From Paramesorhizobium leguminum (GTDB lineage Bacteria; Pseudomonadota; Alphaproteobacteria; Rhizobiales; Rhizobiaceae), in contig NZ_QJTF01000025.1 in assembly GCF_003217235.1 (NCBI RefSeq), positions 1-52,345 of the forward strand: a stretch of DNA of 52,345 nt. The letters run 5' to 3'. This document shows, piece after piece, positions 23,701 through 49,102 of the stretch (positions are counted from its first letter, which is position 1; each line of letters begins with the position of its first letter). A program made the position numbers and the translations under genes. Under the pieces are notes generated by a model, which was not told the origin of the DNA, searched no databases, and was given only the letters and a program-made list of their open reading frames with translations.

Positions 23701-25154
<1,454 letters not shown>

Positions 25155-25158
<4 letters not shown>

Positions 25159-26279
25159 TCGTCGGTTCCTGTCGTATCTGAATTCTGCCCGCGCCACGCG
25201 GGCATGAGAATGCGGAAAGTCGTGCGCCGCGCTTGCGAATCGCACTCGATCACGCCGCCATGGTCTCCGACGATCTTGGCGACAAGGGCCAAGCCCAGTC
25301 CGGAGCCATTGGGCTTCGTTGTCACGAAGGGATCGAAAAGGTGTGGCAACAGATCCGCCGGCACCCCCGCTCCTGTGTCATGCACGCAGAATTCCAGCGG
25401 CAGCGCCACCCGGTCACGTACGCCCGGCACGGAAAGCCGGATGCCCGGACGATAAGCGGTGGAAAGCGTGATCTCCCCCTGCTCTTCGTTGCCAATGGCC
25501 TCGGCGGCGTTCTTGACCAGATTGAGGAAGATTTGCACCAGCTGGTCGCGGTTGGCGTAGACCGGTGGCAGCGATGGGTCGTAATCCTCGTTGAACTTGA
25601 TGTGGCTGGCAAAGCCGTTGCGGGCGATGGCCTTCACATGGTCGAGCACGACATGGATATTGACGGCCTCGCGGTCGATAGGACGCTCGTCCGAGAAAAC
25701 CTCCATGCGGTCGACCAGCGAGACGATCCTGTCCGTCTCGTCGGTGATAAGCCGCGTCAGCGAGCGGTCCTCGTCGCCGACGACGCTCTCCAGAAGCTGC
25801 GCAGCGCCGCGAATGCCTGACAGAGGGTTCTTGATTTCATGCGCCAGCATCGAGGCAAGACCGGTTACAGACCGTGCGGCGCCGCGATGAGTCATCTGGC
25901 GGTCCAGCTTCTCCGCCATCGACTTTTCCTTGAACAGGATAACGACTGACCCCGGAAATTCGCTCACCGGCGTCACATAGATATCCACCATGCGATCGCT
26001 GCCCAGTCGCGGCGAAGAGATGTCGACGCGATATTCGTTCACCGGCGACGGATGCGCTCTGACCTGTTCGACAAGCGCAATCAGCGGACTGCCGAACGGC
26101 AGGAAGGAATCGAGCTTGTTGCGCGCCAGGATATTCGAGCTCGACTTGAAGAACTGCTCCGCATCGGCATTGGCGAAGGTGATATAGCCTTCCGCATCCA
26201 CCATGATGACGGGATGGCTGATCGTGTTGAGCACGATCGAGGCCATCGCTTCGGCTGCGGATTTTTCGCGCGCGTTCAT
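25155..26279 (-). CDS. ntrB: nitrogen regulation sensor kinase NtrB (soluble)
   Basis: A 374-residue cytoplasmic histidine kinase started at the ATG at 26279, which forms TGATG with the dusB stop. It has an N-terminal PAS domain ([20 protein letters not shown]), HisKA with His147 in [15 protein letters not shown], and an ATPase domain with N-box [11 protein letters not shown] and G-boxes DTGAGVP and [11 protein letters not shown]. There is no transmembrane helix. In relatives, PII protein switches it between kinase and phosphatase according to glutamine level. Confidence 0.95.
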
Positions 26280-27421
26280 CACGCCACCTTTTTCAGTTCG
26301 GTTATTTGGGGAGGGCACGAAAAGGCTTGGGCGAGTTTTCTGATAACGGTGGCTGGATCGCTTTCGGTCATGATCGCCGCGCGATCCTGTTGTGGAAGCT
26401 CACCGGCATGGCGGTCGAGATACCAGCCCAGATGCTTGCGCGCATGGCGCGTTCCGGTATTCGGGCCGTAATGGGAGAGCATCGCTTCGTAATGCGTGAT
26501 GACGTATTCGCTGATATCCAAAGGCATCGCCGTTTGCCCCTCACCCTTACCCTCTCCCCGCACGCGGGGAGAGGGAGGCGTCAACGTTTGTGCAAGGTTC
26601 GTCGCCTGCTGTGAAGGGCCAACGTCAAGGTCCCCCTCTCCCCGTATTTCACGGGGAGAGGGTAAGGGTGAGGGGCCATCAGCCATGCGGGCAATCTCTC
26701 CCGGCAGCCAGGGCTGGCCGTAGCATCCCCGTCCGATCATCACCGCGTCAGCACCGGAGCGGGCGAGGATTTCTTCCGCATCGCTTGCCGAAATCACATC
26801 GCCATTGGCAACCAATGGGATGCTGACCGCCTCCCGCACCGCGTGAATTGCATCCCAATCCGCCCTGCCTTCATAGAACTGGCAGCGGGTGCGGCCATGC
26901 ACCGTAACCATGCGTACGCCTGCATCCTCAGCCCGGCGCGCCAGTTCCGGCGCGTTGATGCTGTGTTCGTCCCAGCCGAGCCGCATCTTGAGCGTGACCG
27001 GCACGCGGACTGCCTTCACCGTCGTCTCGACAAGCGTCATCGCATGATCGAGGTCACGCATCAGCGCCGAGCCTGAATAACCGCCCGTGACCTTTTTGGC
27101 CGGGCAGCCCATATTGATATCGATGATATGCGCCCCCTCGCCTTCCGCTATGCGGGCGGCCTCGCCCATCCAGCGGGCCTCGCGCCCGGCGAGCTGCACC
27201 ACATGCGTTTCAAGCCCCTCGCCTTTCAGCCGCATCAGGCTTTCGCGGTCGCGCGAGCAGAGTTCCGCGCTCGCCACCATTTCCGAAACCACCATGCCGG
27301 CGCCCGCCGCCCAGGCAAGCTTGCGGAAAGGCAGGTCCGATACGCCGGACATCGGCGCCAGAAACACCCGGTTGCGCAAACGGACATCGCCTACGTATAA
27401 AGCTTCACCCAGAATGGTCAC
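26279..27421 (-). CDS. dusB: tRNA-dihydrouridine synthase DusB with an in-frame palindromic-element insertion
   Basis: A 380-residue FMN-dependent enzyme that reduces uridine to dihydrouridine in tRNA; the family is also called NifR3. The TIM barrel begins [15 protein letters not shown]. The catalytic Cys106 lies in [11 protein letters not shown]. The FMN phosphate site is [14 protein letters not shown]...[16 protein letters not shown]. The C-terminal helical domain ([13 protein letters not shown]...[12 protein letters not shown]) is intact. Between these two parts, residues about 249-296 are a Pro/Gly/Arg/Glu insert encoded by a 141-bp inverted-repeat element (26536-26676), exactly 47 codons. 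Family members are usually near 330 residues. Start is GTG at 27421. The gene leads the dusB-ntrB-ntrC operon common in alphaproteobacteria. Confidence 0.93.
26536..26676. repeat. palindromic element inserted in frame inside dusB
   Basis: The outer 24-bp arms (26536-26559 and 26653-26676) are exact reverse complements. Each end also folds on itself: CCTCTCCCCG at 26551-26560 pairs with CGGGGAGAGG at 26565-26574, and the mirror hairpin lies around 26634-26662. The total of 141 bp is a multiple of three and contains no stop codon in the dusB frame. Related units lie at 46111-46150 and 48911-48949. Confidence 0.9.
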
Positions 27422-46110: not shown

Positions 46111-46150
46111 GCCCTCACCCTTACCTTCTCCCCGTCTTTTATGGGGAGAA
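46111..46150. repeat. palindromic unit between Lrp-like and ExoR-like genes
   Basis: CCCTCACCCTTACC followed by the hairpin TTCTCCCC...GGGGAGAA (46126-46133 with 46143-46150, 9-nt loop) copies part of the arm of the dusB-inserted element. It lies between convergent genes and may terminate transcription from both sides. Confidence 0.6.
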
Positions 46151-46218
46151 GAAGGGTGCCGGTAGGCGTGAGTGGTGTCCCAGTTAGATCGGCCGTTTCA
46201 GTTTAACTCTGACAAACT

Positions 46219-48572: not shown

Positions 48573-48910
48573 TTTGTCCCTCCCCAGATCAATGACTGCA
48601 ATCGAATTTTGACGGAAACGTAACATGAAAGTGATGCCCGGCAAGGGGGTGCTAAAATGCCGTTTCCATCGGCCAAAACCACGTTTCGTAAAAAACACAT
48701 GTTTTCAGCCTGATGAGCGAACTTATAGGCAGATTCTTTGCTTGTGAGAGCGCCAAAAGTGCCAATTTCGAGGGGTTTTAGGCCGATCAGGGCATGCTGT
48801 TGCGGGAACGCAACAATGTCCGCATATTGTTCAAATCATGGCGAAAATGGCAATCCAGCGGAGCAAGGGTTGCGGCAATGAGAGACTGGGGCGGCCTTTC
48901 GAATCGAGGC
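48573..48910. other. intergenic region upstream of the OmpP1/FadL gene, no gene seen
   Basis: The first half probably carries the promoter of the OmpP1/FadL gene. I see no supported reading frame, RNA or recognised site here. The start-proximal part contains AT-rich segments around 48680-48730. Confidence 0.5.
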
Positions 48911-49102
48911 GCGCCCTTACCCTCCCCCTTGCGGGGAGGGTAAGGGCGCGGAGCGCCGGGGTGGGGTGGTGCAGAATTGAGCACAACCGTCTCCACCCCC
49001 ATCCGCCCGCTTCGCGGGCGTTCGTCGCTGGAAAAGCCAAATCGTTGGCTTTTCCTCGGCCTATGGCCGAACGCTCCTCACCCCCGCAAGGGGGAAGGAG
49101 GG
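48911..49102. repeat. cluster of hairpins downstream of valS
   Basis: A perfect 17-bp inverted repeat (48911-48927 with 48933-48949) uses the same CCCTTACCCTC core as the dusB insert. It is followed by three smaller perfect hairpins: CGCCCGC-TTC-GCGGGCG near 49005-49021, GAAAAGCCAA-ATCG-TTGGCTTTTC at 49031-49054, and TCGGCC-TAT-GGCCGA near 49056-49070. The element ends at the valS stop codon. The minus-strand reading of one or more of these may terminate valS. Confidence 0.75.

Follow-up and report, generated by a model that had tools for sequence, protein, structure and literature searches.

The dusB gene of Paramesorhizobium leguminum contains, inside its reading frame, a palindromic element of 141 bp that belongs to a dispersed family in the same genome. 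The element is very likely a selfish, MITE-like insertion that is carried by DusB as a translated, tolerated and disordered linker; we infer translation, tolerated function and selfish spread from the evidence laid out below. The window, meaning the whole stretch of DNA that was analysed, is 52,345 nucleotides long and comes from a 3.73 Mb draft genome in 67 contigs (G000; labels G001 to G327 denote the other genomes compared and L labels individual loci). Sister species have genomes of 4.9-5.6 Mb, compared with 3.7 Mb here. P. leguminum is placed in the same genus as Paramesorhizobium deserti, that is, as the relatives G002 and G004, whose dusB loci match contigs of P. deserti A-3-E and Phyllobacterium phragmitis 1N-3 with full identity over 3732 bp. 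The gene and the parts of its insert are:

26279-27421, minus strand: dusB (tRNA dihydrouridine synthase B), 380 aa including the insert, assigned by TIGR00737, Pfam Dus and alignment with structure 6ei9
26536-26676, minus strand: palindromic element, 141 bp, DusB residues ~249-296, encoding PSPLPSPR...RGEGKGEG, absent from all 109 other DusB loci
26536-26560, plus strand: left terminal arm, 25 bp, perfect complement of 26652-26676
26652-26676, plus strand: right terminal arm, 25 bp, perfect complement of 26536-26560
26549-26576, minus strand: hairpin formed by one element end alone, -24.1 kcal/mol as RNA
26632-26663, minus strand: hairpin formed by the other element end alone, -26.8 kcal/mol as RNA

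The product of dusB scored 331.7 bits against NCBIfam TIGR00737 (cutoff 293.3) and also matched Pfam Dus. It was the single DusB match in the P. leguminum genome at E<=1e-40, so no uninterrupted second dusB copy was seen. The inverted repeat was found where the original prediction had placed it; its arms are perfectly complementary, as claimed, but are 25 bp long rather than 24 bp. The further claim of an in-frame insertion of about 47 codons without a stop also held, as the frame is open along the entire length of the gene, insert included. The two ends of the element each fold by themselves and can also pair with each other. As RNA, the insert folds at -100.6 kcal/mol (z -9.84), and none of 200 shuffled sequences was as stable. 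An Rfam search of the window returned no family at the gathering threshold. Judged by position and the usual gene order, the two ORFs 3' of dusB (23701-26318) look like ntrB and ntrC; the strong hairpin of the insert would sit upstream of these putative nitrogen-control genes on the same transcript.

The palindrome is not native DusB sequence. We compared 110 DusB loci, 30 from whole genomes and 80 from named records (including at least 4 duplicate pairs), and the 47 residues were missing from every one of the 109 loci other than that of P. leguminum, where a short, variable linker is found instead; this was the alignment of relatives that had been proposed as a check. The site was likewise empty in the five other same-genus genomes examined. 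The E. coli DusB structure (6ei9) aligned to two parts of the protein, residues 8-254 and 299-340, and the insert fills the gap between them. An AlphaFold model made with 45 sequences had a mean pLDDT of 83.5. Confidence was mostly near or above 90 in the DusB domains, with dips in the loop at 101-120 and at the extreme end, while it was below 50 at residues 261-300 and fell from 84 to 28 over the blocks from 241 to 300. The closest fold match of the model was E. coli DusB. All columns invariant in the 45 DusB sequences were retained, including C106 and the residues between H310 and Y334. Collectively, the model suggests that the insert is probably disordered and lies between two well-folded domains, in agreement with its predicted location at the boundary of the FMN-binding barrel and the C-terminal helical domain.

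The element is one member of a family. A search with the 22-base arm core, allowing up to 3 mismatches, gave three hits in the window (both dusB arms and the site at 46112) against 0.00 expected from 100 shuffles, and 88 hits in the genome against none for a reversed-pattern control, which excludes chance. Two intergenic relatives had been named in the window, at 46111 and 48911. The first is confirmed, whereas the second is doubtful and, given its weak match, is not established as a family member:

46112-46153, plus strand: intergenic partial copy of the dusB-element family, one end only (nhmmer E 2e-7; 22-base core with 1 mismatch)
48910-48950, plus strand: 18-bp perfect hairpin of doubtful kinship to the element (nhmmer E 0.02 for 48917-48951)

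The second hairpin, with its arm-like sequence, may be a remnant of the element or may be unrelated.

The 88 genomic hits merged into 62 copies; both arms were matched in 26 of these and a single arm in 36. Measured by profile, 29 copies are full length at 135-171 bp, 31 span 79-121 bp and two are shorter. In most full-length copies the sequence runs from TGCCCC to GGGGCA, and both ends form hairpins as well. The element is G+C-rich, and most inserts encode the peptide PSPLPSPR...RGEGKGEG. The best-scoring other genomic copy is 79% identical to that in dusB. The family shares the features of MITEs in being short and multicopy, with terminal inverted repeats and no coded transposase. Around the 26 copies with both arms, the two flanks show mild complementarity, averaging 4.9 of 12 compared to 3.8 for shuffled flanks (1 of 2000 shuffles reached the observed value), probably owing to a few copies with longer palindromes.

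Genes were called with a home-made codon-usage finder trained on 90,204 codons, and the families of the ORFs carrying copies were taken from Pfam and NCBIfam. Ten of the 62 copies lie inside predicted genes, all ten in open frames, and 52 are not spanned by a gene, which bears out the claim of a dispersed family. In the calls of the gene finder, as distinct from homologs of each flank, no gene was seen to be split in two by a copy. The genes with a copy are:

dusB: interior
CydC-type transporter gene, L147: between the membrane and ATPase parts (best models CydC, below cutoffs)
threonine-phosphate decarboxylase CobD gene (cobD), L153: interior
TilS gene (tilS), L162: interior
YgfZ gene (ygfZ), L167: interior
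PxpB-PxpC fusion gene (pxpBC), L175: 89-bp copy between the two parts
CoaBC gene (coaBC), L183:928-2442, minus strand: N-terminal, joining a FitA-like antitoxin segment in one open frame
nitrate reductase/formate dehydrogenase (nas/fdh) type gene, L193: between the Fe4S4 and molybdopterin domains
class II aldolase gene, L195: inside the Pfam domain
IolC-DUF2090 gene (iolC), L197: interior

Nine of these copies are interior and that in coaBC is N-terminal. As the latter fuses an antitoxin segment to the N-terminus, the true start of CoaBC is uncertain: either the fusion is translated or a later start is used. Full-length copies were found in genes more often than shorter ones (8 of 29 compared to 2 of 33, p 0.036). 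TilS is essential in bacteria, and tilS had a single match in the P. leguminum genome, which argues that the insert-bearing enzyme can work. At L155, L179 and L194, one end of a predicted gene lies within a copy or shortly beyond it, and the copies at L179 and L155 may supply tails at the C- or N-terminus. ORFs running through copies were dropped if they had no two-sided coding signal or were antisense to a real gene, examples being L174, L194 and the second ORFs of L162 and L175.

A search with the insert peptide found copies in 6 of 61 genomes (P. leguminum, G001, G003, G004, G035 and G079). The relatives' copies were collected as a first set of 29 stretches with 32 profile hits, which held nine distinct in-frame copies, and a second set of 20 further stretches picked mostly for long open frames. 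The in-frame copies of the first set, followed by those of the second, are:

G003: iolC, cydC, the adjoining CydD-like transporter gene (Pfam only), pxpBC and cobN
G001: cobN and the D-apionate lactonase gene (apnL)
G004: a nas-type gene at L254, not called by the gene finder
G035: a PcrA/UvrD-type helicase gene (pcrA/uvrD)
second set, G003: class II aldolase gene
second set, G001: ATP-grasp protein gene, L386
second set, G219: HrpB gene, L383
second set, G188: CobN-like protein gene, with Pfam coverage limited to the portion following the copy

The G003 cydC copy is present in both L240 and L245 and was counted once; in this region (G003 C1 66000-72600), cydC and the neighbouring CydD-like gene have one in-frame copy each. 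L382 of G327 was dropped as it had no Pfam family. Across 297 genomes of the family, 31 gave a match to a composite element peptide at E<=1e-5, and a related repeat was found in 141 plasmid records, 67 of them from Sinorhizobium and 48 from Rhizobium, none with 80% query coverage.

Filled and empty forms of the same genes were compared for dusB, tilS, ygfZ, cydC, cobD and iolC. Among the six same-genus genomes, the full tilS insert was found in P. leguminum alone, with some extra bases at that place in G003. The ygfZ site is filled in P. leguminum and G003 and empty in the other four. The cydC site is filled in P. leguminum and G003 and empty in G001, G002 and G004, with no match in G005 at 1e-40; the cydC-like gene of G002 (C1 283094-284741; L304, L309) is in two ORFs of 261 and 421 aa and is possibly broken. 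For iolC, the site is filled in P. leguminum and in one G003 gene, whereas a further G003 gene and those of G001, G002, G004, G005 and G008 have it empty. The cobD insert is found in P. leguminum (L331) and G001 (L332) and its site is empty in four genomes including G003 (L334), yet a four-gene tree pairs P. leguminum with G003 (support 1.0), so that loss or transfer is needed. Precise loss, transfer or repeated insertion may each account for the cobD pattern, and simple descent does not explain every shared insert. At silent sites, the insert middles of cydC and the aldolase gene are more diverged (0.75 and 0.81) than the genes themselves (0.54 and 0.42), which fits separate insertions at nearly one spot. 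The iolC insert interior, on the other hand, is identical to that of G003 at 62 of 63 positions, and the 100-bp flanks are 89-91% identical compared to 84-85%, suggesting that a tract may have been exchanged recently.

The pooled dN/dS of seven same-gene pairs, which included cobD and the aldolase gene, was 0.58 for the insert (bootstrap 0.44-0.79), 0.51 for the insert middle (0.34-0.77) and 0.16 for the gene (0.15-0.18); pxpBC was left out since P. leguminum has only the 89-bp copy. The inserts are thus under weak constraint, which a translated but tolerated segment would be expected to show, yet their dN/dS is below 1. This value, the strong hairpin and the presence of several inserts in more than one species would also be expected if the in-frame copies were kept for a function, through an effect of the linker or the mRNA hairpin on the enzyme or on operon expression. 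We consider such a function unlikely: the inserts are far less constrained than their genes, one peptide recurs in functionally unrelated enzymes, those of dusB and tilS are confined to P. leguminum among the six same-genus genomes examined, and part of the constraint may be on the palindromic DNA itself.

The reading frames of the arms bear on whether the insert reaches the protein. Among full-length copies in genes, the left-arm frame PSPLPSPR was in phase with the right-arm frame RGEGKGEG in 17 of 17 cases (8 in P. leguminum and 9 in relatives), compared to 18 of the 40 readable among 41 other full-length copies (p 3e-5); in the P. leguminum genome alone the counts were 8 of 8 and 5 of 21 (p 0.0003). 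These statistics are partly circular because in-gene copies were recognised via their open frames. The phase rule is also not absolute, as the copies in HrpB (L383) and the ATP-grasp protein (L386) use another left-arm frame (APHPYPLP) with the usual right-arm frame. Stops account for part of the frame preference: of 82 strand-reads of copies not scored as in-gene, 50 were open in frame 1, 25 in frame 2 and 16 in frame 3. A second alternative is that the insert is transcribed and is then missing from the protein, either through excision of the hairpin from the mRNA or through ribosome bypass. The very stable insert RNA speaks for such a process, but neither excision nor bypass needs an open frame or arms in phase, whereas all ten in-gene copies of P. 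leguminum are open and, with the circularity just noted, all 17 full-length ones, those of relatives included, are in phase. Moreover, length differences between species within shared inserts leave the frame open, examples being a gap of 3 bp in cobD and a pair of 1-bp gaps in ygfZ that closes neither frame, and we regard this alternative as quite improbable. An assembly artefact, in which a misjoin at the multicopy repeat of a 67-contig draft created the insertion, can be set aside as extremely improbable, since misjoins would rarely keep the frame in ten genes, independent assemblies have in-frame copies in the same genes (G003 iolC and ygfZ, G001 cobD and G004 nas-type) and the dusB copy is distinct from all others in the genome.

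Together, these results favour a selfish element that is translated as a tolerated linker. A non-autonomous, MITE-like element of about 135-171 bp at full length, with ends that fold singly and pair together, would have multiplied in this Rhizobiales genome, and one copy would have inserted into dusB at the flexible linker that connects the FMN barrel to the helical C-terminal domain. Ribosomes should translate straight through the PSPLPSPR...RGEGKGEG frame, which is in phase and has no stop, and DusB would gain about 47 disordered residues with its fold kept. Copies that shift the frame or bear stops would be purged by selection, while those in permissive loops and linkers would survive. Points against this selfish-linker reading are the partly circular phase statistic, the two copies that use another left-arm frame, the cobD pattern and the insert dN/dS below 1, and also that no target-site duplication was found: direct repeats beside the 26 two-arm copies were no commoner than in shuffled flanks (3 bases in 8 of 26, none longer). 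More tentatively, the family might be a protein-coding palindrome family of Rhizobiales, separate from those of Rickettsiales, and a recurrent source of new protein segments rather than only tolerated junk, with the same disordered Pro/Gly-rich segment being gained repeatedly at identical permissive positions in core enzymes (e.g. cydC and class II aldolase) and some copies then persisting across species. We hold this wider proposal to be possible, with the odds against it.

In-frame palindromes in many core genes have been described chiefly in Rickettsia and Wolbachia. In the cited passages, the Rickettsia and Wolbachia palindromic elements (RPE and WPE; Ogata et al. 2000, 2002, 2005) are dispersed palindromes of ~100-150 bp, found between genes and in frame in unrelated conserved genes at solvent-exposed spots, and some copies are common to related species at the same sites (PMC2229807, PMC3767692, PMC10969869). 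The text cited gives 19 intragenic RPE insertions and an RPE-bearing guanylate kinase that is translated and active (PMC2229807). The family described here is similar in consisting of dispersed palindromes with terminal inverted repeats (62 copies, with 25-bp arms in dusB) and in having open-frame copies inside what are predicted to be conserved genes (10 of 62). It differs in its G+C-rich sequence and PSPLPSPR...RGEGKGEG peptide, and in having about one sixth of its copies in genes, compared to nearly half of RPEs according to the relevant part of a review (PMC10969869). Its host is a member of the Rhizobiales with a 3.7 Mb genome and not one of the obligate intracellular Rickettsiales (Rickettsia or, for WPE, Wolbachia). 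The likeness to RPE put forward in the original prediction is therefore apt as an analogy, drawn by description and not by sequence, and the element is not assigned to RPE because the host group is different.

Dispersed repeats are also found in rhizobia themselves, including the Rhizobium intergenic mosaic elements (RIMEs), for which the defining paper is reportedly Osteras et al. 1995. The element resembles repeats on Sinorhizobium and Rhizobium plasmids, e.g. at 75-76% over ~90 bases, and none of the 30 matches listed had an annotated feature under it. RIMEs are described as intergenic in the passage cited (PMC2573895), in contrast to the present family, with 52 of 62 copies outside predicted genes and 10 inside. 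RU-1, RU-2 and RU-3 (ERIC, YPAL; PMC2759123) and the Coxiella QMITEs (PMC5896051) are, in the parts of these papers cited, small palindromes that are mobile, contain open frames and occur within genes or as fusions to them. For RUs the same part reports none in conserved domain sequences of superfamily proteins, and fusions at C-terminal regions (PMC2759123), whereas the copies here are mostly interior and several split conserved families; the two are set apart by description and not by sequence. Among alphaproteobacterial palindromic repeats of ~100 bp, which include Bru-RS1 and Bru-RS2 of Brucella (PMC10800456, in part), the CIR of Caulobacter and Brucella has two hairpin arms and a linker, contains the motif GANTC, is interrupted by stops in every one of the six frames and, in the cited excerpt, has no known intragenic copies (PMC2229807). 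Two hairpin arms joined by a linker are seen here too, as each end of the dusB copy folds alone. Identity with CIR is nevertheless ruled out, since GANTC occurs in 3 of 62 copies (0.38 per kb compared to 1.33 per kb in the flanks) and frames are often open. Among the titles and abstract openings listed in searches of the open-licence literature, none describes in-frame palindromic elements in Rhizobiales, which does not prove their absence from print, and a 2024 MITE review, in the portion cited, calls a similar mechanism in other prokaryotes only 'conceivable' (PMC10969869). A separate family in a 3.7-Mb Rhizobiales genome would show that the process known from Rickettsia and Wolbachia is independent of obligate intracellular life, and the filled and empty forms of the same enzymes make it testable at the bench whether selfish DNA creates useful protein segments.
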